From the NCBI RefSeq assembly GCF_024138715.1, contig NZ_CP092074.1:4774001-4838000 (forward strand): a stretch of 64,000 nucleotides of DNA. The letters are read 5' to 3'. The DNA comes from Emticicia sp. 21SJ11W-3 (GTDB lineage Bacteria; Bacteroidota; Bacteroidia; Cytophagales; Spirosomataceae). A model generated the notes under the pieces. It made no database searches. It was not told the DNA's origin and was given only the letters and a program-made list of their open reading frames with translations. Positions 1-22,260 of the stretch are shown here, one piece after another. A program made the translations under genes and the position numbers. The first letter of the stretch is position 1. Each line of letters begins with the position of its first letter.

Positions 1-347
1 CTATTGTCTGACACAACCATCATTGGTGCACCCACCAGGTCCGGGTACTCAACAAACCAGGCCACACCCAGCAAAATCATTAAAACAAAAAAGAACACGC
101 TTACACCCCAGCGCACCAGCCAGGCAGGCGGCTGATTCAACACCTCATCAACCTGGCTATTACGTAGCTCCGGCAGGTTGGAATGGTTGTCGCCTCCCCC
201 ACCCCCACCTTTATTCAAGACCGGAGGCACAGGTGGCCCGTCAGACCCACTATTCAGCAAATCTGGTGAGATTACGTCTTTACCACCAACCAACTCTGTA
301 AGACTACTTTCTGATAATTCTCCTGCTGTATCTTTGTTGTTTCCCAT
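1..347 (-). CDS. HlyD-family secretion adaptor, N-terminal part (cut by window edge)
   Basis: The reading frame starts at the ATG at 347-345, sharing one base with the stop of the C39 transporter gene (TGATG), and stays open to the window edge. It encodes about 115 residues. A charged segment (NSQVDEVLNQPPAWLVRWG) is followed by one membrane helix and then the start of a periplasmic region, which is how Bacteroidota HlyD/membrane-fusion proteins begin. With the ABC exporter it would form a type I secretion complex, needing an outer-membrane TolC-like partner not seen here. Odd feature: the first 22 residues end in LSESSLTELVGG, which fits the double-glycine leader pattern (Leu -12, Ser -11, Leu -7, Leu -4, Gly-Gly). 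A Pro/Gly-rich linker with six consecutive Gly follows before the helix. Family call is good; the leader-like segment is an observation. Confidence 0.8.
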   Translation of the reverse strand, partial: MGNNKDTAGELSESSLTELVGGKDVISPDLLNSGSDGPPVPPVLNKGGGGGGDNHSNLPELRNSQVDEVLNQPPAWLVRWGVSVFFFVLMILLGVAWFVEYPDLVGAPMMVVSDN

Positions 348-2572
348 CAGTTTCCTAGTTCTAATTGGTTTTTCACGAGTTCAAAGTATTTGCCATGCTT
401 TTGGGTAAGCTCGGCATGGGTGCCGGTTTCAACAATCTCGCCTTTTTCAAGCACCACAATCTGGTCGGCATTTTTTACCGTACTGAGGCGGTGCGCCACC
501 ACCACAACTGTTCTGCCCTTGAAGAACTCGTTCAGATTTTGCATAATTACGCTCTCATTGTTGGCATCAAGTGCATTGGTGGCTTCGTCAAGAAATATGA
601 AATCGGGGTTTTTATAAACCGCGCGTGCAATTAATAACCGTTGTTTCTGCCCCTGGCTGATTCCGCTACCCTCTGCGCCTATGTTGGTGTTATAACTCAA
701 TGGCAGCTCTTCAATAAATGACCGTATATTGGCCACTTTTACGGCATGCATCAATTTAGGTATGTCGGGGGTTTCGTCACTTACGGCAATATTATTGGCA
801 ATGGTATCAGAGAAGATAAAGCCATCCTGCAAAACAGTTCCGCACACACTGCGCCATACCCGCGGACTGATGTTATTAAGGGCAGTATCGCCCAGTTTAA
901 TCTCTCCTTTGCCGGGGTTATAAAATTTAAGCAGTAATTTAAGCAAAGTAGTTTTTCCGCTGCCACTGGTACCTACAATTGCTGTTACTTTGCCATTGGG
1001 GATGCTCAGGCTGATATCCTTTAAAACAGGTTCATTACCTGCGCCTGTATACGTAAAACTCAGGTTCTTAATTTGTATATCTTTGTTTTGCGGCAGATAC
1101 TTTACAAAGGTTTTTTCTTCCGGTTCTTCATTGTCAATTTCATGTATTTCATTGAGCCGCTCAATGCTGATCTGGGCGTCCTGCCAATGCTGTATAAACT
1201 GTATCAACTGTTCAATCGGGCCATTGAGCTGCCCCATTATGTATTGCATGGCCATCATGCCTCCGAGTGTCATTTGCCCGTTTACTACGGCCGTGGCTGC
1301 AAGAAAAGTTATCAGGATATTTTTGCCTTCATTAATAAAGAGAGTACCCGCTTGCTGGTATTGCCCTATTGCCAGGCTTTTGATACTCCATTTAAATTGT
1401 TTAACCTGCAGATTTTCCCATTCCCAACGTTTCAGGTATTCGGCATTATTCATTTTTATTTCCTGCACCCCGGTAATGAGCTGTATCAGGCTGCTCTGAT
1501 TCTGGCTGGCCAGCGCAAAGCGCTTGTTATCCATTTTCCGGCGATACCGAAGAAAAACGGTTATCCAGAGGGTATATAAAATGCTGGAAACAATGAAAAT
1601 ACTAAAAATGGTGAGGTTATAAAAAGCAGCTATAAAACTGAAAATTACCAGATTGAACATCGAAAACAAGACATTGAGCGAAGACCCCGTCAGGAATGAC
1701 TCTATCCGGTGATGGTCGCCGATGCGCTGCAGGATATCACCAGTTTTTTTTGAGTCAAAAAATGCAATCGGGAGTTTCAATAACTTGCCCAGGAAGTCAG
1801 ACAGAATGGATAAATTAATGCGCGTACTGATATGCAACAGTATCCAGCTTCTGATGAAATCAACCGATACCTTGCCCAAAAACAGCATGGCCTGGGCAAT
1901 CAGAATGAGGTAAATGAAATGCAAATTGCGTGTTTGAATACCCGTGTCAACAATAGATTGGGTGAGAAAAGGGAAGATAACCTGTAAAATTGAGCCAATC
2001 AGTAAAACCAGACCCAACTGAACCAGTAAGCTTTTATATCGCCAGACATACTGCCAGAGCATGCCAATGGCAAGCCCCCTGTTTTTTTCGCCTTCATCTT
2101 CATAAAACCGGGATGTGGTTTCCAGAAGCAATGCTATACCTTCTTCTTCATTGTTCTTCTTTGAGGCCAGCCAGCCCTGACAAAACTCATCTTTTGAGTA
2201 CGTTAGTAAACCTCTTCCGGGGTCAGCAACATGTACCATTAAATCTTTACCAAAACGGCTTTTGGTAATTTTATACACAACCACAAAGTGATTCTGCTGC
2301 CAGTGAATAATACATGGCATAGGTGCTTCTGTAGTCAGCTTCTCAAAACTTACCTTAACAGCCAGTGTTTTAAAACCAATATCTTCAGCGGCTTGGGCAA
2401 TACCCAATAAAGAAACACCCTCTTTGCCAATTTCTGCTTTCGTGCGCAGTGTCTGAATAGATAAATTTTTCTTGTAATGCTTCGCCACCATACGCAGGCA
2501 GGTGGGTCCGCAGTCCATCGCATCCAGTTGTTTATAGTAGGGGAATTTATTATTTAGCACATTTTTAGTCAA
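347..2572 (-). CDS. Peptidase C39-containing ABC transporter (bacteriocin-type exporter)
   Basis: This 741-aa protein has the three-part PCAT layout. A C39 cysteine protease domain (about residues 1-140) carries the DCGPTC motif with Cys21 as the likely nucleophile, His in HWQQNHFVV and Asp in HVADPG. An exporter-type membrane domain spans about 170-450. The nucleotide-binding domain (about 490-735) has Walker A GTSGSGKTT, a variant signature ISQGQKQR, Walker B IFLDEATNALD and the switch His in VVAHRLST. Such proteins cut leader peptides after a double glycine and export the mature peptide. Two precursors with matching leaders lie upstream on the same strand (6452-6640 and 16278-16547). It overlaps the HlyD gene, so the two are surely co-translated. 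All catalytic motifs look intact. Confidence 0.95.
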   Translation of the reverse strand: MTKNVLNNKFPYYKQLDAMDCGPTCLRMVAKHYKKNLSIQTLRTKAEIGKEGVSLLGIAQAAEDIGFKTLAVKVSFEKLTTEAPMPCIIHWQQNHFVVVYKITKSRFGKDLMVHVADPGRGLLTYSKDEFCQGWLASKKNNEEEGIALLLETTSRFYEDEGEKNRGLAIGMLWQYVWRYKSLLVQLGLVLLIGSILQVIFPFLTQSIVDTGIQTRNLHFIYLILIAQAMLFLGKVSVDFIRSWILLHISTRINLSILSDFLGKLLKLPIAFFDSKKTGDILQRIGDHHRIESFLTGSSLNVLFSMFNLVIFSFIAAFYNLTIFSIFIVSSILYTLWITVFLRYRRKMDNKRFALASQNQSSLIQLITGVQEIKMNNAEYLKRWEWENLQVKQFKWSIKSLAIGQYQQAGTLFINEGKNILITFLAATAVVNGQMTLGGMMAMQYIMGQLNGPIEQLIQFIQHWQDAQISIERLNEIHEIDNEEPEEKTFVKYLPQNKDIQIKNLSFTYTGAGNEPVLKDISLSIPNGKVTAIVGTSGSGKTTLLKLLLKFYNPGKGEIKLGDTALNNISPRVWRSVCGTVLQDGFIFSDTIANNIAVSDETPDIPKLMHAVKVANIRSFIEELPLSYNTNIGAEGSGISQGQKQRLLIARAVYKNPDFIFLDEATNALDANNESVIMQNLNEFFKGRTVVVVAHRLSTVKNADQIVVLEKGEIVETGTHAELTQKHGKYFELVKNQLELGN

Positions 2573-2677
2573 TTAGTTTTTCATTCAAAAGTTTTTCCAA
2601 GGTTTTCTACTAGATTTAGTCTAATTTAATGAGCCTTCTTCCTGAAAAGTTAATATCCAACCCAGTATTCTTGTTTA

Positions 2678-3859
2678 TCATAAATTCTTATCTAAAAACC
2701 TAATTATTTCTTCGGGTTCTAAATCTTTCTTAATTATCGTTCCTGAGCTATCCACTAAGAAATTAGCCGGATAAGCTATTATGTTTATAGCTGTAGTAAT
2801 CTTTCTGTTTTCATCAAGATATTCCGGCCAAGGGAATTTGTATTTTCTTAATGCTATATCTAATCTATCAAGATTACCAGTCCAATCTCCGGGAACAGAA
2901 ATAATCCGAAAACCCTTAGCTGAGTATTCAGGATAAATTTTTTTGTATTCACGTAACTGTTCAACGCAGGTTCCACAGGCAGAATGCCAAAAGTCGATAA
3001 GCGTGTACTTCCCTTGTTCCGTATTTATCTTTTCAAACTTTCCGGAGGTCAGATTTTTATATTCGAAATTTGTAGGAAATTTTTTACCTATTCCTACGAT
3101 ATTGGCTTCATTTAGTTTTGCTGCCAATATTTTCCCAATAAAGCTTCTGCCAATATCAGAATCGGACATATATCTTTCCAAAAAATACTCATACCCTGGC
3201 TGAATACCTCTTTGGTAAAAATGAACGTATAAATACCAAAAAGAATAATTGCGGTCCTTCATAGAGCAAGTATTATTTTCTATCACTCTTGCTCTTTCAA
3301 TGTGATTTTCTTTGATGAGCTTGCATACGTTTGCCAGGCTGTCTGGAATCAGCTCGGGAGTCGGGTAAGCAGCCGTGATACTATCAGAAAATGTCTGCAA
3401 CCAAGTAATATCTTTCAATAAACGTTTGTAATTTGAATAAGCGTAAGAGTCATAATAACTTTTCATTATCTCATTATTGACTAACGGAATAGGAGATTTT
3501 AAATCAATTTCGGCCATCTGTGTACCTTCTCTAACTACAAAAAAATCAGATGAATAACGGCATGTATCTTTGCTGCAAAATTTAAAAATAAAGGGATAGG
3601 TCGGATAACCTAACTCGCCTTTAATAGTAAAACTTCCATTGGTTATATTTGCAGAGTAGCTTCTTATATCCAAAGTTGCATCAATTGAGTCTGAAGGAAT
3701 AGCCGGAATGAGTAAAATTTGCCCATCAGAAGCATTGATTTTTCCTTCAACTACAAAAGTATGTTGCCCGAAACAACTCATTGACTCAAACAAGATGGTT
3801 GAGTAAAAACATATGTACCATATTCTTTTAATACAAAAAGATAGAAAAATAGAATTCAT
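2678..3859 (-). CDS. TlpA-like thioredoxin-domain protein, tandem copy A
   Basis: Secreted protein with an N-terminal signal segment (MNSIFLSFCIKRIW... FGQ), a DUF4369-like beta domain and a C-terminal TlpA/thioredoxin domain. The redox motif is CGTC (in SACGTCVEQ), without the usual preceding Trp, and the cis-Pro loop reads NIIAYPAN. I chose the ATG at 3859: the open frame runs on to 3937 but that stretch lies inside the previous copy's end and a hairpin. It is the first of three near-identical genes ahead of the C39 exporter. Likely role is reducing or isomerising disulfides in the periplasm, perhaps for the exported peptides; that role is inference. Copies differ mainly at a few clustered sites, including the active site. 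Confidence 0.85.
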   Translation of the reverse strand: MNSIFLSFCIKRIWYICFYSTILFESMSCFGQHTFVVEGKINASDGQILLIPAIPSDSIDATLDIRSYSANITNGSFTIKGELGYPTYPFIFKFCSKDTCRYSSDFFVVREGTQMAEIDLKSPIPLVNNEIMKSYYDSYAYSNYKRLLKDITWLQTFSDSITAAYPTPELIPDSLANVCKLIKENHIERARVIENNTCSMKDRNYSFWYLYVHFYQRGIQPGYEYFLERYMSDSDIGRSFIGKILAAKLNEANIVGIGKKFPTNFEYKNLTSGKFEKINTEQGKYTLIDFWHSACGTCVEQLREYKKIYPEYSAKGFRIISVPGDWTGNLDRLDIALRKYKFPWPEYLDENRKITTAINIIAYPANFLVDSSGTIIKKDLEPEEIIRFLDKNL

Positions 3860-3933
3860 ATATTTTTTAATTTGACAAAGTACATAAGTACCATTTATTG
3901 GGTATCTTATGCACTTTGTAATGAAATTCACTA

Positions 3934-5115
3934 TCATAAATTCTTATCTAAAAACCTAATTATTTCTTCGGGTTTTAAATCTTTCTTAATTATCGTTCCT
4001 GAGCTATCCACTAAGAAATTAGCCGGATAAGCATATATGTTTATAGTTGTAGTAATCTTTCTGTTTTCATCAAGATATTCCGGCCAAGGGAATTTGTATT
4101 TTCTTAATGCTATATCTAATCTATCAAGATTACCAGTCCAATCTCCGGGAACAGAAATAATCCGAAAACCCTTAGCTGAGTATTCAGGATAAATTTTTTT
4201 GTATTCACGTAACTGTTCAACGCAAATTCCACAGGCGGAATGCCAAAAGTCGATAAGCGTGTACTTCCCTTGTTCCGTATTTATCTTTTCAAACTTTCCG
4301 GAGGTCAGATTTTTATATTCGAAATTTGTAGGAAATTTTTTACCTATTCCTACGATATTGGCTTCATTTAGTTTTGCTGCCAATGTTTTCCCAATGGAGC
4401 TTCTGGCTATATCAGAATCGGACATATCGTTTTTCAAAAAATACTCATACCCTGGCTGAATACCTCTTTGGTAAAAATTAACGTATAAATGCCAAAAAGA
4501 ATAATTGCGATCCTTCATAGAGTAAATAGTATTTTCTATCACTCTTGCTCTTTCAATGTGATTTTCTTTGATGAGCTTGCATACGTTTGCCAGGCTGTCT
4601 GGAATCAGCTCGGGAGTCGGGTAAGCAGCCGTGATACTATCAGAAAATGTCTGCAACCAAGTAATATCTTTCAATAAACGTTTGTACTCAGTAAAAGAGT
4701 AACGGTCATAATAATTTTTCATTATGCCATTATTGACTAACGGAATAGGAGATTTTAAATCAATTTCGGCCATCTGTGTACCTTCTCTAACTACAAAAAA
4801 ATCAGATGAATAACGGCATGTATCTTTGCTGCAAAATTTAAAAATAAAGGGATAGGTCGGATAACCTAACTCGCCTTTAATAGTAAAGCTTCCATTGGTT
4901 ATATTTGCAGCATAGCTTCTTATATCCAAAGTTACATCAATTGAGTCTGAAGGAATAGCCGGAATGAGTAAAATTTGCCCATCAGAAACATTGATTTTTC
5001 CTTCAACTACAAAATTATGTTGCCCGAAACAACTCATTGACTCAAACAAGATGGTTGAGTAAAAACATACGTACCTTATTCTTTTAATACAAAAAGATAG
5101 AAAAATAGAATTCAT
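3934..5115 (-). CDS. TlpA-like thioredoxin-domain protein, tandem copy B
   Basis: Near-identical paralogue of the genes on either side, with the same signal segment, DUF4369-like domain and C-terminal thioredoxin domain. Here the redox motif is CGIC rather than CGTC, and the residue two before the cis-Pro dipeptide is Tyr (NIYAYP). The start at 5115 matches the ATG of the other copies. A one-base deletion upstream (TTTGCAAAG against TTTGACAAAG) changes the frame of the spurious N-terminal extension but not the gene, which supports the short start. Substitutions relative to copies A and C cluster near residues 155-165 and 215-260. Confidence 0.85.
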   Translation of the reverse strand: MNSIFLSFCIKRIRYVCFYSTILFESMSCFGQHNFVVEGKINVSDGQILLIPAIPSDSIDVTLDIRSYAANITNGSFTIKGELGYPTYPFIFKFCSKDTCRYSSDFFVVREGTQMAEIDLKSPIPLVNNGIMKNYYDRYSFTEYKRLLKDITWLQTFSDSITAAYPTPELIPDSLANVCKLIKENHIERARVIENTIYSMKDRNYSFWHLYVNFYQRGIQPGYEYFLKNDMSDSDIARSSIGKTLAAKLNEANIVGIGKKFPTNFEYKNLTSGKFEKINTEQGKYTLIDFWHSACGICVEQLREYKKIYPEYSAKGFRIISVPGDWTGNLDRLDIALRKYKFPWPEYLDENRKITTTINIYAYPANFLVDSSGTIIKKDLKPEEIIRFLDKNL

Positions 5116-5188
5116 ATATTTTTTAATTTGCAAAGTACATAAGTACCATTTATTGGGTATCTTATGCACTTTGTAATGAAATTCATTA

Positions 5189-6370
5189 TCATAAATTCTT
5201 ATCTAAAAACCTAATTATTTCTTCGGGTTTTAAATCTTTCTTAATTATCGTTCCTGAGCTATCCACTAAGAAATTAGCCGGATAAGCATCTATGTTTATA
5301 GCTGTAGTAATCTTTCTGTTTTCATCAAGATATTCCGGCCAAGGGAATTTGTATTTTCTTAATGCTATATCTAATCTATCAAGATTACCAGTCCAATCTC
5401 CGGGAACAGAAATAATCCGAAAACCCTTAGCTGAGTATTCAGGATAAATTTTTTTGTATTCACGTAACTGTTCAACGCAGATTCCACAGGCAGAATGCCA
5501 AAAGTCGATAAGCGTGTACTTCCCTTGTTCCGTATTTATCTTTTCAAACTTTCCGGAGGTCAGATTTTTATATTCGAAATTTGTAGGAAATTTTTTACCT
5601 ATTCCTACGATATTGGCTTCATTTAGTTTTGCTGCCAATGTTTTCCCAATAAAGCTTCTGGCTATATCAGAATCGGACATATCGTTTTTCAAAAAATACT
5701 CATACCCTGGCTGAATACCTCTTTGGTAAAAATTAACGTATAAATGCCAAAAAGAATAATTGCGGTCCTTCATAGAGTAAATATTACTTTCTATCACTCT
5801 TGCTCTTTCAATATGATTTTCTTTGATGAGCTTGATTACGTTTGTCAGGCTGTCTGGAATCAGCTCGGGAGTCGGGTAAGCAGCCGCGATACTATCAGAA
5901 AATGTCTGCAACCAAGTAATATCTTTCAATAATCGTTTGTAGTTTGTATAAGCGTAATCGTCATAATAATTTTTCATTATCTCATTATTGACTAACGGAA
6001 TAGGAGATTTTAAATCAATTTCGGCCATCTGTGTACCTTCTCTAACTACAAAAAAATCAGATGAATAACGGCATGTATCTTCGCTGCAAAATTTAAAAAT
6101 AAAGGGATAGGTCGGATAACCTAACTCGCCTTTAATAGTAAAGCTTCCATTGGTTATATTTGCAGCATAGCTTCTTATATCCAAAGTTGCATCAATTGAG
6201 TCTGAAGGAATAGCTGGAATGAGTAAAATTTGCCCATCAGAAGTATTGATTTTTCCTTCAACTACAAAATTATGTTGCCCGAAACAACTCATTGACTCAA
6301 ACAAGATGGTTGAGTAAAAACATACGTATAATATTCTTTTTATACAAAAAGCTAGAAAAATAGAATTCAT
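5189..6370 (-). CDS. TlpA-like thioredoxin-domain protein, tandem copy C
   Basis: Third member of the tandem set and the one nearest the precursor peptide (6452-6640). The signal segment, DUF4369-like domain and thioredoxin domain are as in the other copies. Its redox motif is CGIC and the pre-cis-Pro variable residue is Asp (NIDAYP). The ATG at 6370 follows an AT-rich leader with no Shine-Dalgarno, as usual for Bacteroidota. The transcript probably starts upstream of the peptide, so this gene would be co-transcribed with it through the hairpin at 6386-6430. Confidence 0.85.
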   Translation of the reverse strand: MNSIFLAFCIKRILYVCFYSTILFESMSCFGQHNFVVEGKINTSDGQILLIPAIPSDSIDATLDIRSYAANITNGSFTIKGELGYPTYPFIFKFCSEDTCRYSSDFFVVREGTQMAEIDLKSPIPLVNNEIMKNYYDDYAYTNYKRLLKDITWLQTFSDSIAAAYPTPELIPDSLTNVIKLIKENHIERARVIESNIYSMKDRNYSFWHLYVNFYQRGIQPGYEYFLKNDMSDSDIARSFIGKTLAAKLNEANIVGIGKKFPTNFEYKNLTSGKFEKINTEQGKYTLIDFWHSACGICVEQLREYKKIYPEYSAKGFRIISVPGDWTGNLDRLDIALRKYKFPWPEYLDENRKITTAINIDAYPANFLVDSSGTIIKKDLKPEEIIRFLDKNL

Positions 6371-6385
6371 ATATTTTTTAATTTG

Positions 6386-6430
6386 ACAAAGTACATAAGC
6401 CCCTTTTATTGGGTATCTTATGCACTTTGT
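6386..6430 (-). promoter_or_regulatory. Hairpin between precursor peptide and TlpA copy C
   Basis: Arms 6386-6399 and 6417-6430 pair over 14 positions with one mismatch, around a 17-base loop that can add three G-C pairs. It sits between the stop of the peptide gene and the TlpA start. The same hairpin precedes copy A (3875-3919) and copy B (5131-5173). There is no U-run, so it looks more like an mRNA-stabilising or attenuating structure than a simple terminator. Confidence 0.6.
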
Positions 6431-6451
6431 AATGAAATTCACAAATTTGTA

Positions 6452-6640
6452 TTAACTGCAAGAACCTGGTGTTTTACCATCAGATGTAGAGCAAGTTGTG
6501 CAACCAGAAGGTTCACAATCTTTATTAGAACCCAAGCAAGCCGCTGCCCCACATGCTTCTCCTGCTAGGCCACCTTTTACTTTTTTCATTTGCTCTCTTG
6601 AAAGTAAAGACGCACCAATACTAATAATCATTTTTTTCAA
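6452..6640 (-). CDS. Double-glycine-leader cysteine-rich precursor peptide
   Basis: A 62-residue peptide. The leader ends LSREQMKKVKGG, giving Leu -12, Ser -11, Met -7, Val -4 and Gly-Gly, the pattern cut by C39 peptidases and seen in the Bacteroidota GG natural-product precursor families. The predicted core is 38 residues, rich in Gly, Ala, Ser and Thr, with six cysteines (CGAAAC, DC, GCTTC, SCS), enough for three disulfides. The full-length frame needs a TTG start (6640); an ATG lies three codons in (6631). A C39 exporter is encoded about 3.9 kb downstream on the same strand. Bacteriocin, toxin or signal activity is unproven. I recognise no close family for the core. Confidence 0.8.
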   Translation of the reverse strand: MKKMIISIGASLLSREQMKKVKGGLAGEACGAAACLGSNKDCEPSGCTTCSTSDGKTPGSCS

Positions 6641-6651: not shown

Positions 6652-7370
6652 TTAAAATGTTAAGATTTGTTTATGGTTGATTTGCAAATCCCTTGTTGGT
6701 AAATACTTTAAGATACCTTTCAAATCTTTTAAACGGTATATTTCAGGTATTTTTAACCCATCCAAATACATCGTTGGTGTCCCTTTAATTTTTGTAATTC
6801 TTGCCAGCTCACACCAAACTTTATGTTGTTCTATTAAACTCCTGGTTTTTTTGTTTTCATTTATTCCCAATTTCACCTCCCACTTTTCTATGTTGAGTTC
6901 TTCGTTTCGTACCACTGATGCAGTGCCTCTGCCTGCCGTTCCTGGATAAGGATAAAATAATGCTTCCCACTTTGCCAAGATTGTCAGCCTCAAAGTAAAT
7001 TGCATAAAATACTACCCGACAATTCAGGGTATAATTAAAAAACAGGTCTTACATTACTGCGTAAACACGTGGATAAGGCTGACAAAACGGATTTTTACAG
7101 ATTTCACTAATGCAAATACCCCCCATTTACATTTAAGTGGGTTAAAAATGGCGTTGTTATATCTATTATTTGTTCGGGCTTTATCTGTAGGGCCACGTTT
7201 TCAATATGCCACTCGTTCAGGGCATCACTGGTAGCCAACAGGCTTGGGTAATCGGGGTGATTTTTTAAAGTTTCTTCTACAGTTTCAGCGGTTACTTTGG
7301 CACCAATCGATTTCAGATATAAATAAGTAGCCGCCACAGCATTGTCATTAGATAATGGCGTTGTAAACAT
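6652..7370 (-). pseudogene. Remnant of a C39-like/VKOR/thioredoxin fusion gene
   Basis: Two open pieces flank stop-rich sequence. The upstream piece (7107-7370, 87 aa) matches the start of the 539-aa protein at 16576-18195: a C39-like fold without the catalytic Cys, ending at NGGYLH before TAG TGA. The downstream piece (6652-7005) matches that protein's C-terminus (IEKWEVKLGIN against IEKWEAKFGIK, then a shared PTMYLDG/PVRFLNN-type stretch). The whole membrane VKOR part and the thioredoxin CxxC are missing. It is an internally deleted gene; the surviving ORFs are unlikely to be functional, though the 87-aa piece could still be translated. Confidence 0.75.
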
Positions 7371-12950: not shown

Positions 12951-12963
12951 TCAAGTCGATATC

Positions 12964-14364: not shown

Positions 14365-14389
14365 ATTTGTAAGCATTAGTCAGAGCTTT

Positions 14390-14417: not shown

Positions 14418-14430
14418 GTAATTAAACAAT

Positions 14431-14565
14431 TTACCACGACTTATTGGTATGAGAAGAACAGTTATCACAACAGTAATAAGCATGTACCCAGCCACCCCAG
14501 GATGCAACAGTAGTTGCTTCATTTTTGGCCACTTCAAGACGATATCTTACTTCCTCAACAATCCA
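14431..14565 (-). pseudogene. Remnant of a precursor peptide, core end preserved
   Basis: The frame reads RLEVAKNEATTVASWGGWV then HAYYCCDNCSSHTNKSW and stops. Its C-terminal YYCCDNC corresponds to HYCCDHC in the intact peptide at 16278-16547, and the stretch rich in Thr, Val, Trp and Tyr before it is also alike. Instead of a leader, the frame runs back into the last codons of the 505-aa TlpA gene in another frame, with no start codon. It is best read as the 3' part of a lost precursor gene joined to a TlpA end by duplication or deletion. Confidence 0.6.
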
Positions 14566-16064
14566 TCAAAAACTTCTCTGATTTTCGGATCTGATGGCCG
14601 GGGTGCATCACTATTGATTACTTTGCCAGCTTTATCCATAATCATGTATCGAGGTATGGCAGATACATCAAACTTTCTGATAATTTCCGATTGGCCAGCA
14701 TTCATTAGCAAAAGACTTCCCTGATTGCCTAAGTTCAATTGGGTGTTAGCTTTTCTCCAAGCATCATGACTCTCATCTATCGACAGATACAGAAATTTAA
14801 TGCCCTTATTTTCATATATTCGCTTTAATTGAATAGACAAAGGCATTTCAATTCTACATGGAACACACCATGAGGCCCAGAAATCGAGATAATAAAACGC
14901 TTGTTTGTCTGTCTTGATTACTTCATTAAGATTGTCGAATTTTCTTCCTTGTAAATCAATAATCTTTGCCTGCCCAGCTGCCTTATCAGATTGAAAGTAA
15001 GTAGCATGCAAAAAACTTCTAATTGAGCTATCGGCAGTTAAGTTATAAAAACGCCTCGCCAGCTTTTGGGCTTCGTTCCTGCTTTGTGAATGAACCATTC
15101 CTAAGGCGTACATAAGCACACCTGTTTTTGATTTACCTGCATAAATTTCTTCGCACTTCTCAAAATATCTGATATGATTACTGGAAGTAAAATCTTTTTC
15201 AACCAGATATTTAGCCCAATTGTAAAGAAACTGGATATAGTATAGCTTATTTACCAGGCTATCATTAATCAATTGTTTGGTAATGTGTGTATCAACCTGG
15301 ATTTTATTTCTGCTTTGAAGCACCCCGCTATAAAAATTGTATGTTTGTCTTTGTTTGGTTTCCTGATAGAACTTTTCTGAAACGAGGTTATTTCTATAAA
15401 GGCTATCCAAGAAATGCTGACTATATTGTATGCTTTTTGTTGGACTCAGAAATTCTCCCTTCAATATCTTTGCTTTAGAGTCTGGCTCAAGCGCTACTGT
15501 ATTTGAAATTTTCTGATCGAAATCATCAATTCCTATACTTTTCAGATTCAGTAAGGTGTAATAGTTCATCTCATTGAAGTTAAAACTCCGATTCTTTAAT
15601 CTAAAAATAGGATAATCCTTTTTATTAAGAGCAATTTCTACGACATCTCCCTTTCTGAATTCCTGCGAAATATTGAATGTAATCTCCTTATTCATTGAGT
15701 TTATAGTTACCATTAAATTGTCGCCGGAAAGAATCGAATCTTTTAATTTATTTTTATTCAGGTTAACCAGCGCATATCCATCCCGAGAATTACAATTCAG
15801 TAATAGTTCTCTGGCGGTATTGGCTTCTAATGTGAAGTATATATAACCCGGAGTTTTCTGCGAGTAACCTTTGTCGGCTGATTTCTGGACAACCTTAAGC
15901 TTATCATTCCTTGCTTTATCTGCCGAACACGAAAAAAACACAAAAAGAACAAAATAAACGATCGTAAGCCAAAGTGAATGCTCCCAAATTGGCAAGCATC
16001 TTTTTTGTAAAGCGTAAGAATTACTAATGGTAAAAAAAAGTCTCCACCCCGCTGATTTTCGCAT
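14547..16064 (-). CDS. TlpA-like thioredoxin-domain lipoprotein (505 aa)
   Basis: From the ATG at 16064 there are about 46 residues before a lipobox-like FVFFSC, an unusually long leader. No in-frame ATG gives a shorter one, so the true 5' end may have been altered. A beta domain and helical region precede the thioredoxin domain, which has WASWCVPCRIEMP, AIPRYMIMD and the tail APRPSDPKIREVF. It is a close paralogue of the 12964 gene in the last 150 residues, not in the N-terminal half. It stands downstream of the intact peptide at 16278 across a strong hairpin. Confidence 0.83.
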   Translation of the reverse strand: MRKSAGWRLFFTISNSYALQKRCLPIWEHSLWLTIVYFVLFVFFSCSADKARNDKLKVVQKSADKGYSQKTPGYIYFTLEANTARELLLNCNSRDGYALVNLNKNKLKDSILSGDNLMVTINSMNKEITFNISQEFRKGDVVEIALNKKDYPIFRLKNRSFNFNEMNYYTLLNLKSIGIDDFDQKISNTVALEPDSKAKILKGEFLSPTKSIQYSQHFLDSLYRNNLVSEKFYQETKQRQTYNFYSGVLQSRNKIQVDTHITKQLINDSLVNKLYYIQFLYNWAKYLVEKDFTSSNHIRYFEKCEEIYAGKSKTGVLMYALGMVHSQSRNEAQKLARRFYNLTADSSIRSFLHATYFQSDKAAGQAKIIDLQGRKFDNLNEVIKTDKQAFYYLDFWASWCVPCRIEMPLSIQLKRIYENKGIKFLYLSIDESHDAWRKANTQLNLGNQGSLLLMNAGQSEIIRKFDVSAIPRYMIMDKAGKVINSDAPRPSDPKIREVFDGLLRK

Positions 16065-16277: not shown

Positions 16278-16547
16278 TTAAACTGGATAATTCCAGGGGC
16301 AATGATCACAACAATAATGTGTTCCGTTTTGACCTGCCAGATATACGGCATTCTTTTTTGAAACACCGTTCGAATCATAAGGGGCAGGTTTCCAATAAGT
16401 GGTTACAACTGTAGTATAGCTTTTGAGGTAGGCATCCCACATGGTATGATAAACTTTCTGTTGATAGCCGCATTGACCACCCCCCAGAATTTTTGCCATT
16501 TCTGATTTTGACAATGAAGAACTTTTGAATTTTAACAGTTTTTCCAT
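16278..16547 (-). CDS. Double-glycine-leader precursor peptide with CC-x-x-C tail
   Basis: An 89-residue precursor. The leader ends LSKSEMAKILGG, a textbook double-glycine pattern (Leu -12, Ser -11, Glu -8, Met -7, Ile -4, Gly-Gly). The core of about 66 residues is rich in Tyr, Thr and Trp, with four cysteines: QCG near the start and HYCCDHC near the end. The gene lies 28 bp downstream of the VKOR fusion and upstream of a TlpA gene, so oxidative folding of the core is a natural guess. Two remnants (14431-14565, 12852-12950) seem to carry versions of the same C-terminal motif. I do not recognise the core family. Confidence 0.82.
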   Translation of the reverse strand: MEKLLKFKSSSLSKSEMAKILGGGQCGYQQKVYHTMWDAYLKSYTTVVTTYWKPAPYDSNGVSKKNAVYLAGQNGTHYCCDHCPWNYPV

Positions 16548-16575: not shown

Positions 16576-18195
16576 TTAAGTTTGATTTGCAAATCCTAGA
16601 TTGAATTGATTCCTGACTATTTTACCCAGATCATCGGCCTGATATGTTTTAGGGATAAACCTGTTATTAAGGAATCTAACTGGTGCTTCTCTGATATTTG
16701 CCATTTCCAACCATCTTAAATGCAGAGCCATTTGTTCTCGTCCATTTTTGTTATCATTTTTTATTCCAAATTTTGCCTCCCATTTCTCTATGTCTTTGTT
16801 ATTATCGTTAAACCATTCATCCAAAGCAGTTTTTATATCAATACCGTTGGCCTGACCCAATATCTGAGATGCAACCTTACCTCCCTCATCGTGTGCAGCC
16901 ATTGATGCGGCCAAAACTATATCAATCTTTATATTACCCTCGTTCTCTATCAATCTTTTCGCGGCAAAATAAGATTGCCTACAAGAGCCACACCCGGGGC
17001 TCAATATCAAGAGTAAATGATTGCCGGCATCATTGTTGCCCATTTGTATGGTCTGCATTCCATCAAAAAACGGAGGCAGAAATGTTTCTTTACTAAATAT
17101 TGAATTCATAAAATCGGTGTTGAACTTTAGTTTTTGTAGTTCAACGTAAAGACTATCTGCCCGCAATGATTTTATAAGGAGGCCTTTTATTAATACCCAG
17201 AGAACAGGGGTAATCAGAAAAGCTATTAGTGCAATTTTATACGAAAAAGTAGCAGGTAAACTAGTATTTATTGGCCAGTTGATTAAAAACTCTACCCATA
17301 ATAAAACTTGTATACTAAGGCATAAGACACACCATTTCCGAACAACAAAACCCTGATAATAAACAGACCATAGGGTGTAAGGCATCACCATAACACCCAG
17401 AATCTGAATGAAAGGTATGGCACGTACTCCATCAAAAAGCAGTGCTAAAAAACCACCTGAAAAATAAAAAAACCCGATTTCTGCCCATGATATCCATCCA
17501 AATAGCTTTGCCGCCGGAGAATTTAATACAGAATCACAGTTTGATTTATTATTTAATTTACACACACTTTGCAGAAATGAGTTGCCGGCATCAAGACTAT
17601 ACCAAACCAACATGGCAGAAATAGTTAATCCGATAGTTTTAGATAGCAGCAAACCGTAATACAGCTGGTTGTTATGAAATAAAATCTCCTGAAAAGTTTC
17701 AAAGCCCATCATACCCAAGATTACTAGCAGACCTACCACAAAAAATGGCAAACGCAAACCATTCAGAATTTCATTTCTACGATTTTGCTTAAAGTTTGGC
17801 TCACCAGATTCTTCATTGGGCTCTATTAATAAAGTTATTCCCTGCCATTTATGCGTAAAGTTGGTAATTGATTCTTTACGTATCCCTTCCATGTCATGTC
17901 TCCATTCAATTGTATCGTTCTCAACTTTGGTAATCGTCACAAAACTGCCACCATTGTCGTCAAAATAGGCAATAGCAGGCAACGGAATTTCGTAGAGCTG
18001 CCCGGGGTCAAGTCTGGTTGCCAGATTGGGTATATGCAGTTCATTCAGTATTTCACTTATACCTAGTATTGAAGTCGGATGATTATGCTGAAGAATGGCA
18101 CTTTTGAGGCTTGTTTCAGTAACCTTAACTTTTGAAATGGTTAATAGTTGCCAAAGTGCTTCAAATACATTTTTTTCATTCATGTTTAATCTCAT
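16576..18195 (-). CDS. C39-like / vitamin K epoxide reductase / thioredoxin fusion protein
   Basis: A 539-aa membrane protein. Residues about 1-115 are a C39-like domain without the catalytic Cys. About 150-340 form a VKOR domain with the loop pair around NKSNCDSVLNSPAAKLFG and the active-site pair WCVLC. About 365-535 form a DsbA/thioredoxin-type domain with PGCGSCRQSY. Such VKOR-Trx fusions make disulfides by passing electrons to quinones. The C39-like part may hold a double-glycine peptide; this is inference. Its start overlaps the stop of the GT1 gene (ATGA), and the precursor peptide follows within 28 bp, so the three form one operon. Broken copies are at 6652-7370 and 9556-9642. Confidence 0.92.
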   Translation of the reverse strand: MRLNMNEKNVFEALWQLLTISKVKVTETSLKSAILQHNHPTSILGISEILNELHIPNLATRLDPGQLYEIPLPAIAYFDDNGGSFVTITKVENDTIEWRHDMEGIRKESITNFTHKWQGITLLIEPNEESGEPNFKQNRRNEILNGLRLPFFVVGLLVILGMMGFETFQEILFHNNQLYYGLLLSKTIGLTISAMLVWYSLDAGNSFLQSVCKLNNKSNCDSVLNSPAAKLFGWISWAEIGFFYFSGGFLALLFDGVRAIPFIQILGVMVMPYTLWSVYYQGFVVRKWCVLCLSIQVLLWVEFLINWPINTSLPATFSYKIALIAFLITPVLWVLIKGLLIKSLRADSLYVELQKLKFNTDFMNSIFSKETFLPPFFDGMQTIQMGNNDAGNHLLLILSPGCGSCRQSYFAAKRLIENEGNIKIDIVLAASMAAHDEGGKVASQILGQANGIDIKTALDEWFNDNNKDIEKWEAKFGIKNDNKNGREQMALHLRWLEMANIREAPVRFLNNRFIPKTYQADDLGKIVRNQFNLGFANQT

Positions 18196-19550
18196 AGTCC
18201 TAGCTGATTAAGTATTACCTGATTCCTTTGATGCGAATAACAGCTTTTTATTTTTTGCAAACTTTCGGTGGTTTTTTCTTTAAATACCTCGTGATTTAAA
18301 AGCCTTTCAATTTTTGATTTCATATCATTTGTACGTTCATAGGCAAAATTCCCCCTCAACCCTATACCATGATACTCCACCTTCAAGCCGTTTCCATTCT
18401 GGTCGTAGTGCATATCCAGCGGATAAACCATCATCGGCACCCCAAACTCAATGGCTTCTTTAATTGAACCCAAACCGCCATGGGTTATAAATAAATCGCT
18501 CTCTTCGAGTACCTCAAGCTGTGGTACTCTTGAAAAAAAACAGATGTTACCCCCTGCCTTTAACTGAGATTTGAATGTCTCAATAACAAACCGGTTGACA
18601 GATATGATAAGTTGAATATTACCAAGCTCATGTATTACCTCAACCAGATTGGAGACAAAATTCAGAAGTGTTCTATCCGGCCCGGCATAATAAGTACCAA
18701 AACTGCAATAGATAATTTTTTGCCCGTTTGCCCGATGCTTTTTAATATCTGGCCATAATTCGGCAAAAGAAGTGTCCAATTCAGTATCCTGCCTTTGCGA
18801 GCGGGTACAAAGACCCAGATAATACTGCCATTCCTGCCTTACATGAGGCGAAACCTCAAATTCAAGCGGTGCTGCAATCAACTCCGGCACCCCCCGGAAC
18901 ATCTTTGTGAAATGATTTTCTTTGTCTAACGTGTTCTCTGACACTCCGCTTTCTTGAAATATGCGCTTTTCCTGTCGCTGGTTCAGGTATGCAAGAATGC
19001 TTCGTTTAGGATGGGTAAAATTCCACCAGAAACCCGGCTTTCCTTTTATTTTCTTAGGTTCAATTGCCCTGTTTTTTAACCAGGCCCCCTCTGATACTAT
19101 CGGATAACCATTTACCCTATACGTAGACAACATGGGATTGAAAAAAACTATATTCAGGCTTTGATTGAGTGATTTCAGTACCAGATAGTCGGTACTACTA
19201 AATATGTCAATAACAACACTTGCGGGTTTTACTACTTCTAAAATACGGCTTAATTCATTCTGGCGATACCTGAATAGCTCGTTGTTCCAGTATGCCTTTG
19301 ATAAACTCCAGAAACTGACCTTTTTTTTCTTTTCAATGGCAATAAAAGTACTTTCCATGTTGAACATCACTTTTACGCCACTTTGTCTGATTGCCTTATA
19401 ACCGTTTTTTTCAACTAAATCTGCCAGTATATCATCGGTTACTGCAAAGTAAATTTCGTACTTATCGGCAAGTAAATCGGCTACATACATAGCAGGCATT
19501 ACGTGGCTACGAATAGAAGCCGGTATAAAAAGTAAACCGGGGAGTTTCAT
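18192..19550 (-). CDS. GT1-family (UDP-glycosyltransferase/MGT-like) glycosyltransferase
   Basis: A 452-aa GT-B fold enzyme. The N-terminal half begins LPGLLFIPASIRSHVMPAM. The C-terminal donor-binding half carries CSFGTYY and the GT1 signature THGGLGSIKEAIEFGVPMM, followed by a DQNGNG stretch. Family members move a sugar from a nucleotide donor to small molecules or peptides. It is the first gene of the minus-strand operon with the VKOR fusion and the 89-aa precursor, so the peptide is a plausible acceptor; the substrate cannot be read from sequence. The divergent HTH gene lies 313 bp away. Confidence 0.88.
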   Translation of the reverse strand: MKLPGLLFIPASIRSHVMPAMYVADLLADKYEIYFAVTDDILADLVEKNGYKAIRQSGVKVMFNMESTFIAIEKKKKVSFWSLSKAYWNNELFRYRQNELSRILEVVKPASVVIDIFSSTDYLVLKSLNQSLNIVFFNPMLSTYRVNGYPIVSEGAWLKNRAIEPKKIKGKPGFWWNFTHPKRSILAYLNQRQEKRIFQESGVSENTLDKENHFTKMFRGVPELIAAPLEFEVSPHVRQEWQYYLGLCTRSQRQDTELDTSFAELWPDIKKHRANGQKIIYCSFGTYYAGPDRTLLNFVSNLVEVIHELGNIQLIISVNRFVIETFKSQLKAGGNICFFSRVPQLEVLEESDLFITHGGLGSIKEAIEFGVPMMVYPLDMHYDQNGNGLKVEYHGIGLRGNFAYERTNDMKSKIERLLNHEVFKEKTTESLQKIKSCYSHQRNQVILNQLGL

Positions 19551-19863: not shown

Positions 19864-20259
19864 ATGAAACCTATAGAAGAAGCTCTCTTTAATTATCAAT
19901 TAGAGAAGAGATTAACACAACATGAAATGGCCGCGTTACTCAATGTTTCGCAAGCCACCTACAACAACTGGATTAACCAAAAATCCACTGTTTCACCCAA
20001 GTATTATCCCGTAATCACCAAGGTTTGCGGCATAGAGGTCTCTTACCAAACTTCAGGCAAGAAGCGTGCTGATTCTATTGAAAACAAAACCCATGAAAAT
20101 GAGCTTAAATTGTATCAGAAATTTACTCAGAATTTAGAAGAACAAATTGCTTATCTGAAAGAGCGGGCAGGTGAATTGCAGTTTAAGTTGCAGGAAAAAG
20201 AAACAATTCTCAGAAGTCAGCAGGAAGAAATTAATATGTTAAGAAAGCAGCTGGTATGA
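19864..20259 (+). CDS. XRE-type helix-turn-helix regulator with coiled-coil tail
   Basis: A 131-aa protein. Residues about 7-55 form a helix-turn-helix (RLTQHEMAALLNVSQATYNNWIN), and about 75-131 a Glu/Lys/Gln-rich heptad coiled coil likely used to dimerise. It is transcribed away from the peptide locus and is the only regulator-like gene inside it, so it is a candidate controller acting on 19618-19652. Small HTH proteins of this kind are common next to Bacteroidota accessory clusters. It has no sensor or enzymatic domain. Confidence 0.8.
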   Translation: MKPIEEALFNYQLEKRLTQHEMAALLNVSQATYNNWINQKSTVSPKYYPVITKVCGIEVSYQTSGKKRADSIENKTHENELKLYQKFTQNLEEQIAYLKERAGELQFKLQEKETILRSQQEEINMLRKQLV

Positions 20260-20625: not shown

Positions 20626-22035
20626 CTAATTGATAGGTTTATTATCTAGCACTTTTTGGAGAATAATACTGGTTTTATTATCTGAAGGACGAGGAGCAAA
20701 GTTCATTGCAATTTTACCGGCCTTGTCAATAATTAAATAATGAGGAATAGATTTTAAATTTATAGAGTTGCTTAATTTTTGTAGTTGTTCCTCTTTTAAC
20801 ACAACATGTAATCCCTGTAAGTCAGGATGATTTTTTAAAAACATTCTCCATTTATCTTTATCACTATCTTGAGATGCATAGATAAACACCAGGTCTTCTC
20901 TATCTTTAAATTTTTTTCTTAAGTTTATAGAATGACTAAACTCCTTTATACATGGCGCACACCAAGTAGCCCAAAAATCTACGTATATAACTTTACCTTT
21001 TAATTCTGACAACTTAATGGTAGTTCCATCATCTTTTTCTAAGCTTAAATCAGGAATACTACTATAAATTAACAATCTTAACTTATCTCTTAAAATAGCC
21101 AGATACTCTGCGTTTTTTATATATTTTTCAGATAAATAGGTTGTATCATCAGAATAATGAATAGCGCGAATCTGAGATTCCATAAAATAGAAGAGCATAA
21201 GGTCTTTAATCTCTGTATCTAATGAAAGTGTATTAATCGTATTAATTCCATTCTTTTGGTATTCAGCTATTATCAACTTTTGAGGTGTGGTTTCAAGTTC
21301 CTTTTTATTAAATTTATTAACAAATGAAGATGTGGCTAAATAAGTTGTGTACATACGCAGCATAGGTATAAACATGTTATTGCCATAAGACAAATTCTTG
21401 CTTTTTATATCAAGCAATTCTGCTGATATTTGAAAATAATCAGGTACTTTTTCAGTCTTATCACTATAATATGATAAAGTTTTAATTAATTTTTGCCAAT
21501 TGCTGTAATTTACAAACCGACTTCTTAAAAGTTTTTTATCTAAAGAAGAAACAGAAATACTATCACAAAGTTTTTGAAGCAAATCTTCATGTTTCTGAAG
21601 TAAATCCTGCAGAGCTATCGGAAATTCGGTCTCGCCATCACACCTTATTAAACTCTTACCATTATATCTGTAATTCTGAGTTAAATCATTTTGCTTTTGT
21701 AAATAATCATTAATTGAATCCCCAAATTTCACCTCCAATGGGCCATCTTTCAATTCTTTGATTGTTAAACTATAACTTTGGTTGGGTTTTAAATAGACAT
21801 TTATATTTGTAGTATTAATTTTCAATAAGTAAAAGCCAGGATTGCCCGCTTTAAATTGAAAAGCATTTTTTTTAATCTCCTTTTCTGAAAAAATTATCTT
21901 GTTGCTATTAAATATTTCTTTAGACAACTGAATGGAATCAATTATCGACAACTCAGGCACTTTTATTTCAATGCTTATTTTTTGTGAATAAACTACACTG
22001 CTTATCAGCAGAAAAAAGAAAATAAGATGGCGCAT
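20626..22035 (-). CDS. TlpA-like thioredoxin-domain protein (469 aa)
   Basis: A signal peptide (MRHLIFFFLLISSVVYSQ), an N-terminal DUF4369-like beta domain, a long helical middle and a C-terminal thioredoxin domain. The redox motif is WATWCAPCIKEF and the cis-Pro stretch SIPHYLIIDKAGK. The tail APRPSDNKTS echoes APRPSDPKIRE of the 505- and 470-aa proteins, linking it to the same expansion although it lies beyond the HTH gene. A hairpin and a split peptide-like remnant lie just upstream, again the peptide-hairpin-TlpA order. Confidence 0.85.
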   Translation of the reverse strand: MRHLIFFFLLISSVVYSQKISIEIKVPELSIIDSIQLSKEIFNSNKIIFSEKEIKKNAFQFKAGNPGFYLLKINTTNINVYLKPNQSYSLTIKELKDGPLEVKFGDSINDYLQKQNDLTQNYRYNGKSLIRCDGETEFPIALQDLLQKHEDLLQKLCDSISVSSLDKKLLRSRFVNYSNWQKLIKTLSYYSDKTEKVPDYFQISAELLDIKSKNLSYGNNMFIPMLRMYTTYLATSSFVNKFNKKELETTPQKLIIAEYQKNGINTINTLSLDTEIKDLMLFYFMESQIRAIHYSDDTTYLSEKYIKNAEYLAILRDKLRLLIYSSIPDLSLEKDDGTTIKLSELKGKVIYVDFWATWCAPCIKEFSHSINLRKKFKDREDLVFIYASQDSDKDKWRMFLKNHPDLQGLHVVLKEEQLQKLSNSINLKSIPHYLIIDKAGKIAMNFAPRPSDNKTSIILQKVLDNKPIN

Positions 22036-22050: not shown

Positions 22051-22080
22051 AACCCTTTAATCTTCAGGAATTAAAGGGTT
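22051..22080 (-). promoter_or_regulatory. Perfect 11-bp hairpin upstream of TlpA gene
   Basis: AACCCTTTAAT (22051-22061) pairs with 22070-22080 across an 8-base loop. It lies between the peptide-like ORF (stop at 22094) and the TlpA start (22035). Fourth case of a hairpin in this position. Confidence 0.55.
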
Positions 22081-22093
22081 ATAAATTGATAAG

Positions 22094-22260
22094 CTAAAAA
22101 TGATAATCACAGTAAAAAATGGTACCTGCTTCCGTTTGGGTCTGAGCAGGTGTAACCAGGGTGGCCCCCTTCAAATTTACAAATAATTTCATAAATTTAC
22201 CTTCCTTTTTTACTGCACAATTTTGGCTATTTCATTTATCAGAATTGCCATCTCAATCAT
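22094..22260 (-). pseudogene. Split remnant resembling a double-glycine precursor peptide
   Basis: Two short frames in a 416-bp gene-free gap. The upstream one (22210-22260) ends LINEIAKIVQ then stop, resembling the leader LSKSEMAKILGG of the 89-aa peptide with the Gly-Gly lost. The downstream one (22094-22192, 32 aa) is GATLVTPAQTQTEAG then TIFYCDYHF, with a YC-D element like the other cores. They are in different frames. It is best explained as a frameshifted precursor, though the similarity is short. The rest of the gap to 22451 shows nothing clear. Confidence 0.4.

Follow-up and report, generated by a model that had tools for sequence, protein, structure and literature searches.

The systems closest to the one described here are the bacteroidetocins and the glycocins. 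Bacteroidetocins are class II peptides of Bacteroidales with double-glycine (GG) leaders of 15-16 amino acids, a cysteine-bearing core, a peptidase-containing ATP-binding cassette (ABC) transporter (PCAT) as exporter and, in most clusters, a redox gene, their regions also encoding a five-transmembrane (5-TM) protein and a thiol oxidoreductase (Coyne 2019; PMC6671954, in part); they kill Bacteroidota through BamA (PMC8546649, in part). Glycocins such as sublancin and pallidocin bring together a GG-type leader, disulfides, a glycosyltransferase, a PCAT, a thioredoxin and a clustered DsbB-like quinone oxidoreductase (PMC6405829, in part). We analysed a 64,000-nucleotide stretch (the window, G000:C1:4774001-4838000) of the 5.18 Mb single-contig genome of Emticicia sp. 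21SJ11W-3, also of the Bacteroidota, and found in it a locus that appears, by analogy, to work like a glycocin or bacteroidetocin pathway. At its centre is a fusion protein that joins a C39-like (C39L) domain to a VKOR domain and a DsbA-like thioredoxin (Trx) domain; the first is called C39-like, not peptidase, because its catalytic Cys and His have been lost.

Compared with bacteroidetocins, this locus and its relatives (81 loci with 117 precursors in all) have leaders outside the 15-16 residue range (median 24 amino acids, n = 117), six cysteines in 64 of the 117 cores, the C39L-VKOR-Trx fusion, an HlyD adaptor, glycosyltransferases and arrays of precursor and TlpA-like genes. The difference from glycocins is that the quinone enzyme is a VKOR fused to a leader-binding-like domain, and that several glycosyltransferase families occur, none being seen in 49 of the 81 loci. 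As of 2019, glycocins were described with five core cysteines and two disulfides (PMC6405829, in part). Five cysteines are present in two of our 117 cores, and four, six or eight in 103. That feature no longer defines glycocins, since glycocins with three disulfides have reportedly been announced in the title of a 2025 paper. VKOR-DsbA fusions likewise combine the core cysteines of VKOR with a DsbA-like partner on a single chain, whereas the present family has in addition the N-terminal C39-like domain, an extra transmembrane (TM) helix and a reversed charge pattern. In HlyB-type exporters a C39 fold without peptidase activity serves as substrate receptor; the fusion matches HlyB (3zua) by sequence at E 0.053, and its domain is joined to a disulfide-forming enzyme, not to a transporter. 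No earlier description of the fusion architecture, or of the widespread system around it, was found in the literature searched (open-access papers only); there is presumably a VKOR subfamily in CDD with such an N-terminus.

We propose, with a probability of roughly 0.58 for the explanation as a whole, that precursors are docked by their leaders and oxidised at the cytoplasmic face of the membrane before export, with TlpA-like partners acting in immunity or folding. The locus would make, mature and export small, disulfide-rich, bacteriocin-like peptides, in many loci probably glycosylated. The degenerate C39-like domain would dock the GG leader without cutting it, and the fused DsbA-like domain would oxidise the core cysteines, with the VKOR module and membrane quinone restoring its oxidised state. 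All of this would take place on the cytoplasmic side of the membrane, since the extra TM helix would invert the VKOR. The oxidised precursor would then reach the active exporter, where the leader would be cut and the core sent out via HlyD and a pore of TolC type. The product of the TlpA-like gene that follows each precursor would be a peptide-specific exported redox protein, which may confer immunity through binding or reduction. What was computed is the domain composition, the absence of catalytic residues, the linkage of the genes, the parity of the cysteines, the inverted charges and the match between core and TlpA families; that the leader is docked, the substrate oxidised and the module turned to the cytoplasm, what the TlpA-like proteins do, and that the peptides are antagonistic, we infer. 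The central gene is as follows.

16576-18195, minus strand: C39L-VKOR-Trx fusion, 539 amino acids, with C39-like domain (about 1-135), extra TM helix (about 147-171), VKOR (183-307), TM5 and DsbA-like Trx domain (about 380-530)

Pfam assigned Peptidase_C39 (residues 22-128; PF03412, E 3e-11) and VKOR (183-307) to this protein, and across 77 aligned members (the window's own and 76 others) the three-domain layout was kept, with matches at E<=0.001 to Peptidase_C39 in 69, VKOR (PF07884) in 72 and Thioredoxin_4 in 74. Among the NCBIfam and Pfam models that match the fusion, none spans all three domains. The column of the catalytic Cys holds Cys in none of the 77 (one has a gap) and that of the His holds His in one (L095), while Asp is still present in 25; by comparison, Cys, His and Asp are all retained in 48 of 50 exporter chains of more than 600 amino acids from the same loci. 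The four VKOR cysteines (two in loop 1 and the CXXC pair) are kept in 76, 76, 77 and 77 of 77, and the six redox cysteines of VKOR and Trx together in 75-77. The fusion profile aligns to the peptidase of the window's own exporter (E 5e-8) and to PCAT1 in the PDB. An AlphaFold2 model built from the 77 sequences (mean predicted local distance difference test, pLDDT, 91.5; predicted template modelling score, pTM, 0.79) returned PCAT1 in Foldseek at a best E of 2.4e-7, the isolated peptidase domain 7n87 at a TM-score (TMt) of 0.72, and thioredoxin/DsbA-type structures (4gxz, 0.71-0.73; 3gyk, TMt 0.74). By residue conservation, then, the N-terminal domain is related to the leader peptidase of the exporter but catalytically dead, while the disulfide module joined to it looks functional. 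Two observations count against this picture: the 50 Foldseek rows listed for the model contain no VKOR structure, and the best VKOR chain by sequence, 4nv6, reaches E 0.044, so that the VKOR assignment rests on Pfam. A split gene in G014, considered as a natural two-protein version, was discarded; its break lies within the first TM helix and resembles a frameshift.

The orientation of the VKOR module is central to the proposal. The modelled helices (135-171, 177-201, 237-285, which is long enough for two, 290-306 and 316-344) would make six spans, one more than in the usual VKOR-Trx layout, and this would put the C39-like domain, the VKOR cysteines and Trx on one side. Lysine plus arginine (K+R) in the CXXC loop came to 1.90 in the 77 fusions against 0.12 in 26 other VKOR-like open reading frames (ORFs) of the phylum (p 2e-16), in the TM2-3 loop to 0.31 against 2.96 (p 2e-13) and in the TM4-5 loop to 0.68 against 2.31 (p 2e-8). 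These loop windows around CXXC were identical in both sets; the whole-protein tally, which uses slightly different segments, gave more K+R on the C39L/Cys side in 77 of 77 fusions and the reverse in 24 of 26 comparison ORFs. The latter were chosen by pattern and include one half of a broken fusion (L169) and a spurious ORF (L170), and without these two the charge is canonical in 23 of 24, the exception being L166. Read with the positive-inside rule, this distribution indicates an inverted VKOR whose active sites would face the cytoplasm, where the leader is still present. Certain points weigh against an inverted VKOR: the positive-inside rule is a tendency only, the cytoplasm is normally reducing, and in the window protein by itself only four of the six hydrophobic segments pass a strict hydropathy cut, the remaining spans being visible in the family hydropathy means. 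The VKOR of Aeropyrum pernix reportedly has, by the title of a 2017 paper by Hibender, a topology giving disulfide formation in two compartments, and would on that title be a precedent for a VKOR acting on the cytoplasmic side; it is archaeal and to our knowledge has neither a C39 domain nor a role in peptide maturation. We note that the exception L166 is a 161-residue VKOR with an extra N-terminal hydrophobic segment, reversed charge and no C39 domain, possibly another inverted VKOR.

Another possibility is that the VKOR keeps its canonical orientation, with the N-terminal domain and Trx outside and the peptides oxidised in the periplasm, the C39-like domain being a structural or exporter-docking module. 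A Clostridium sp. VKOR-DsbA fusion complements an Escherichia coli dsbA dsbB double mutant and thus functions in the periplasm (PMC12453122, in part), and the TlpA-like partners look exported, 81 of 88 having an N-terminal hydrophobic stretch. Against a periplasmic site stand the reversed charge pattern, the need for a domain of about 135 residues without a signal peptide to cross the membrane, and the binding and cutting of the PCAT1 leader by a cytosolic peptidase domain (PMC6959990, in part). We therefore regard periplasmic oxidation as unlikely, and leader-docked oxidation on the cytoplasmic side as the better account.

That account expects the dead domain to have kept its grip on the leader. 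In PCAT1 the peptidase residues A55 and I59 are in contact with positions -7 and -12 of the leader, and specificity comes from position -4 (PMC6959990, in part). Mapped via the exporter, these contact positions fall in a helix with the consensus S-L-L-x-I-S-[DE], in fusions and exporters alike, and all 77 fusions have a hydrophobic residue at the first contact position. The leaders themselves (n = 117) follow the PCAT consensus that has Met at -7: L(-12) in 109, E/Q(-8) in 113, M(-7) in 94 and I/V(-4) in 114. Helix and leader consensus together fit retained recognition of the leader. Set against this, the second contact position, where PCAT1 has Ile, holds a small polar residue in the fusions (Ser in 62 of 77) and Ser or Ala in 50 of 55 exporters, and the helix is also found in exporters unconnected with the fusion and may reflect ancestry only. 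A leader-helix signature peculiar to fusion-linked exporters was likewise ruled out, as control exporters carry it too.

If the domain is a leader-docking module, it should also be found on different modifying enzymes, and two such proteins were found in exporter loci. L131:1577-2611 and L137:3296-4402, from different genera and 42% identical, join a C39-like domain (profile E 7e-24 and 2e-15) to a 2-oxoglutarate- and Fe(II)-dependent (2OG-Fe(II)) oxygenase (PF13640, E 9e-12 and 2e-14, respectively), and the L131 protein ends just before the exporter frame. Perhaps these direct a leader-guided hydroxylation. They retain a Cys near the expected catalytic place, and the 2OG fusion is absent from the 296 genomes of the phylum sample that were searched; both facts weaken the comparison. 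It occurs in two of 58 relatives, one being the source of the query, and with a loose leader pattern no precursor could be assigned to the L131 and L137 proteins. A third protein, L116:7158-8561, carries a C39-like domain and has no Pfam match, and a small GG-type ORF with one core Cys (L116:6930-7130) lies directly downstream of it. We put at even odds the broader claim that this is an enzyme family which makes disulfides in chosen substrates on the cytoplasmic side, in which a dead peptidase would be a portable recognition element, an inverted VKOR-DsbA would oxidise the docked precursor before export, a TlpA-like partner would accompany each product and, on a 2OG-Fe(II) oxygenase, the same element would direct another modification. 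If true, a leader-recognising enzyme would install disulfides in ribosomal peptides, as happens with other modifications of ribosomally synthesised and post-translationally modified peptides; oxidative folding would be leader-directed and quinone-driven in a compartment usually thought too reducing; and a genetically encoded, substrate-addressed disulfide catalyst would be at hand. We also note, in the Emticicia genome, a C39-only ORF of about 158 amino acids with a strong Peptidase_C39 score beside a TlpA-like gene (G000:3219622-3220336, L114); no leader of the fusion-locus type was found near it.

Linkage of the fusion to precursor peptides was assessed in a collection of related loci. A scan of genome contigs gave 387 fusion relatives, of which the best 80 were kept and, with the window, form the 81 loci; all contain the fusion by construction, near-duplicates are few (L050 and L059), and 114 of the 117 cores are distinct. 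The fusion was found in 33 of 296 sampled genomes of the phylum, in 13 of 140 genera, and 14 of 58 close relatives (Emticicia genome included) match it at E<=0.001, although fragments are included in this count and the match in G040 is no more than an exporter-like ORF. With a simple leader pattern 83 matches were obtained, against 3 when it was reversed and 2 when permuted, and a 14-position leader matrix detected 117 small ORFs at a score of at least 12, its reversed form none. Because the matrix was trained on 66 leader stretches of the same loci, chosen for at least two core cysteines, the linkage counts lean on the reversed control and on strand bias: 116 of 117 precursors lie on the strand of the fusion. 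The original prediction, which was made from the window alone, had named homologous loci that consistently lack precursors as the finding that would speak against it, and 72 of the 81 loci hold at least one. Exporters are present in 60 loci and HlyD in 51, and the genes are usually arranged as fusion, precursor, TlpA-like gene, active exporter, HlyD. The next same-strand gene, taken up to a distance of 1.5 kb, is a precursor for 62 of 83 fusion ORFs, a TlpA-like gene for 73 of 112 precursors and HlyD for 41 of 50 exporters. A second fusion locus of the Emticicia genome (L113) has its own four-Cys precursor. If our proposal is right, the fusion gene would serve as a search handle for a large set of Cys-rich peptides of Bacteroidota.

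For comparison we took 27 exporter loci that lack the VKOR fusion, one from the Emticicia genome and 26 from relatives; this is not a clean set, and five ORFs in four of these loci reach a score of 12, one of them strong (L121). L121, where a typical precursor lies with two TlpA-like genes close to the end of a contig, is probably a truncated fusion locus, and L116, L131 and L137 carry the C39-like domain in other proteins. On the other side of the argument, nine of the 81 loci lack a precursor over the threshold (five of these exceed 20 kb, and one has a match at 10.8), and 21 lack an exporter, again with five exceeding 20 kb. In L036, L048 and L070, all over 20 kb, the fusion occurs with neither precursor nor exporter detected and an ORF of about 760-850 amino acids lies directly downstream, possibly a different class of substrate. 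L086, with fusion, precursor, TlpA and HlyD, comes from a metagenome-assembled genome labelled Candidatus Endomicrobiellum, outside the Bacteroidota, which points to transfer or contamination.

One could also take the Emticicia locus as an ordinary bacteroidetocin-like one, with unrelated TlpA-like duplications and C39-VKOR-Trx as a neutral fusion, since bacteroidetocin loci likewise combine a PCAT with a GG precursor and a redox gene (PMC6671954, in part). This we consider very improbable, given the conserved three-domain layout, the precursors directly behind most fusions, leader lengths unlike those of bacteroidetocins, and the fact that fusion homologues, among the best 80 of the 387 matches and the window, are not scattered away from precursors. 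Nor do existing peptide models account for the family: in an NCBIfam scan of 110 precursors (seven of the 117 were left out: the one on the opposite strand, three that are short and three copies already represented in L050), no more than 26 matched a model at E<=0.001 (16, 8 and 2, for three families). The 16 are matches to TIGR04149, a radical S-adenosylmethionine (SAM)-modified peptide, for which precursor 2 of the window scores 22.7, under the NCBIfam cut-off of 25. No radical SAM enzyme was present among the 20 window proteins scanned, nor in the 25 of 58 Pfam families listed for 90 of 118 accessory ORFs; the other 28 unclassified operon ORFs, many long or far from the fusion, were left out of the Pfam scan by hand.

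The cores point to disulfides in the product. Cysteines per core are distributed as 0 (1 core), 1 (3), 2 (1), 3 (1), 4 (17), 5 (2), 6 (64), 7 (3), 8 (22), 9 (1) and 10 (2), so that 107 are even and 10 odd (binomial p 1e-21, the core without Cys counted as even); the split is 104 to 10 among the 114 distinct cores and 106 to 7 among cores with at least two cysteines. Even parity suggests disulfides, and with the close linkage of fusion and precursor it lends good support to the earlier view that the secreted peptides need disulfide handling. It is conceivable that the fusion instead acts reductively, keeping precursor cysteines reduced or paired with the exporter, with disulfides arising spontaneously outside; the TlpA-like partners match ResA-type proteins in structure, and these are reductases. 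VKOR is, however, a family of quinone-coupled oxidases, and the conservation of its cysteines in 76-77 of 77 fusions, like the even parity of the cores, speaks for oxidation, leaving a reductive role with little chance.

Within the window, the described genes of the locus are all on the minus strand, with a small helix-turn-helix gene (19864-20259) on the plus strand. In the direction of transcription the order is TlpA-like (20626), glycosyltransferase (18192), the C39L-VKOR-Trx fusion (16576), precursor 2 (16278), TlpA-like (14547), a precursor relic, TlpA-like (12964), a second relic, TlpA-like (11534), a TlpA fragment (11039), glycosyltransferase (9931), a fusion scrap, TlpA-like (7738), a decayed fusion (7370-6652), precursor 1 (6452), three tandem TlpA-like genes, the exporter (347), HlyD and, beyond the window, a TolC-like gene. 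Besides the central fusion, the features are as follows.

G000:4771593-4772897, after HlyD and beyond the window: putative TolC-like gene, named from its first residues
3-347, minus strand: HlyD-type adaptor, 5' part, by sequence; the full gene, cut by the window edge, encodes 479 amino acids (G000:4772908-4774347)
347-2572, minus strand: C39 peptidase-containing ABC exporter (PCAT), with PF03412, ABC_membrane and ABC_tran, catalytic Cys, His and Asp present
2678-3937, minus strand: TlpA-like, tandem copy 3, active site CGTC (sequence, copy identity)
3934-5169, minus strand: TlpA-like, tandem copy 2, CGIC (sequence, copy identity)
5189-6442, minus strand: TlpA-like, tandem copy 1, CGIC, immediately behind precursor 1 (copy identity, structure model)
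6452-6640, minus strand: precursor 1, GG leader and 38-residue core with six Cys, LSREQMKKVKGG (leader matrix; NF047798 at E 3e-4, below cut-off)
6652-7005, minus strand: decayed second C39L-VKOR-Trx, C-terminal Trx piece (match to fusion residues 466-527, E 1e-5)
7107-7370, minus strand: decayed second C39L-VKOR-Trx, C39-like piece (match to fusion residues 9-84, E 3e-6)
7738-9546, minus strand: TlpA-like, 602 amino acids, WCGPC, weak mid-protein TPR match (profile match)
9586-9642, minus strand: scrap of a third C39L start, with upstream DNA resembling that of the second (decayed) copy
9931-11037, minus strand: glycosyltransferase, GT92-like (PF13704)
11039-11491, minus strand: TlpA-like fragment, WCVPC, without N-terminal domain (profile match)
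11534-12655, minus strand: TlpA-like, WCGPC, lipoprotein-type N-terminus by eye (sequence, profile match)
12656-12963, minus strand: contains a precursor relic, the C-terminal end of a core (score 63 against a shuffled maximum of 51, 0/60)
12964-14376, minus strand: TlpA-like, WCVPC, open though the preceding precursor is a relic (sequence, profile match)
14377-14546, minus strand: contains a precursor relic of CCxxC type (score 57 against a shuffled maximum of 45, 0/60)
14547-16064, minus strand: TlpA-like, WCVPC, behind precursor 2 (profile match)
16278-16547, minus strand: precursor 2, GG leader and four-Cys core with CCDHC-type end, LSKSEMAKILGG (leader matrix; TIGR04149 at E 7e-5, below cut-off)
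18192-19550, minus strand: UDP-sugar glycosyltransferase, GT28/macrolide-GT-like, its cluster in 18 of 81 fusion loci
20626-22035, minus strand: TlpA-like, WCAPC (profile match)

The C39 exporter, the HlyD adaptor and both glycosyltransferases named in the original prediction are confirmed, and its two intact GG precursors stand out on the leader matrix with scores of 39.4 and 29.9, the next best in positions 1-24000 being 4.6 and the best of the reversed control 5.4. Its VKOR-thioredoxin fusion is present, although the third, dead C39-like domain and the inverted charge pattern had been missed. It had envisaged remnants of up to three more precursors, some of which were misread. Two relics do exist, within 14377-14546 and 12656-12963, whose similarity to known cores exceeded 60 of 60 shuffles each; in the other seven gaps tested, core similarity did not beat the shuffles. 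The ORFs 7107-7370 and 6652-7005 were ruled out as precursors, as they match the fusion. The fast turnover that had been suggested is supported by the decay of two precursors and two fusion copies and by a tandem triplication. A defence system was also considered and set aside: all nine PADLOC matches were to the exporter (best mad3, E 4e-35) and were taken as general ABC/ATPase similarity, with no match to the other four locus proteins scanned. We note that HlyD opens with a leader-like stretch, LSESSLTELVGG (window 282-323), which is not kept in other HlyD proteins of fusion loci; a GG mimic as a general HlyD feature was rejected, the loose pattern being found in 3 of 49 HlyD proteins, two of them within the membrane helix, with 1.07 expected.

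TlpA-like genes number nine in the locus, fragments included (eight had been counted before), and make up nine of the 24 Thioredoxin_8 matches of the genome. They are thus concentrated here. Genes of this kind are not peculiar to this genome, at least one occurring in 58 of the 81 loci (101 genes by hidden Markov model (HMM); 90 in 53 loci by clustering alone). TlpA and precursor numbers correlate across loci (Spearman 0.54), and the 439 kb of control loci contain five TlpA-like matches, of which L121 accounts for two. The genes at 2678-6442 are a recent tandem triplicate, 96.45-97.12% identical, whose differences are spread about evenly over codon positions (14, 16 and 12 of 42 in one pair), which suggests relaxed or diversifying selection. 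Splitting off the N-terminus was possible for 75 of the 101 proteins and gave 32 N-terminal families, whereas the TlpA domain is common to all; CXXC was found by simple pattern in 73 of 88. Proteins of the same N-terminal family accompany more similar cores (0.169 against 0.125 permuted, 0/1000), and the match persists among loci with fusions less than 45% identical (0.145 against 0.121, 0/1000; 58 pairs). As a partial rank correlation the covariation is small (0.13, 3/500 permutations) and it is clearer by family; the permutations do not fully remove shared ancestry. The structure model of the TlpA-like protein is moderate (pLDDT 76), and the 50 matches listed are thioredoxin-fold proteins, uninformative on the N-terminal part.

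What these proteins do admits of two readings, and our proposal, if right, would give a testable role to TlpA-like proteins of Bacteroidota. Two in the window remain open behind precursor relics, which together with the triplication favours a protective role. The alternative is that they are dedicated foldases or isomerases, one per peptide, and not immunity proteins: they lie directly behind precursors, track core families and mostly carry CXXC. The bacteroidetocin-region thiol oxidoreductase, needed for toxin activity and conferring no immunity (PMC6671954, in part), favours such a role in maturation and tells against the immunity part of our proposal. Dedicated foldases would, however, leave unexplained why the genes stay open behind decayed precursors and have multiplied in the window without extra precursors, and if the exporter-HlyD-TolC-like channel is continuous, a periplasmic protein would not meet the product. 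A foldase role is accordingly a strong possibility that falls short of an even chance, and we consider immunity slightly more likely than folding.

Six clusters of glycosyltransferase-like genes are together represented in 32 of 81 loci; HMMs trained on these clusters, and so biased toward fusion loci over controls, found such genes in 33 of 81 fusion loci against 3 of the 27 control loci. Among the six clusters is DUF6625, a family without assigned function that was counted by the company it keeps and is the commonest among the 90 accessory ORFs scanned (12 members). On our proposal the peptides would probably be glycosylated in many loci.

Regulatory genes were also seen beside the fusion. 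A LytTR response-regulator cluster is represented in 12 of 81 loci by 15 copies, none on the strand of the fusion, and a PF06580 histidine-kinase cluster in seven of 81; one member of each was named by Pfam (for the clusters, e.g. L094:6026-6745 and L092:13655-14731). Peptide-responsive control by these neighbours is possible. Outside the locus, the window contains a tRNA-Gln gene (28492-28563) and a TPP (thiamine pyrophosphate) riboswitch (39512-39609).

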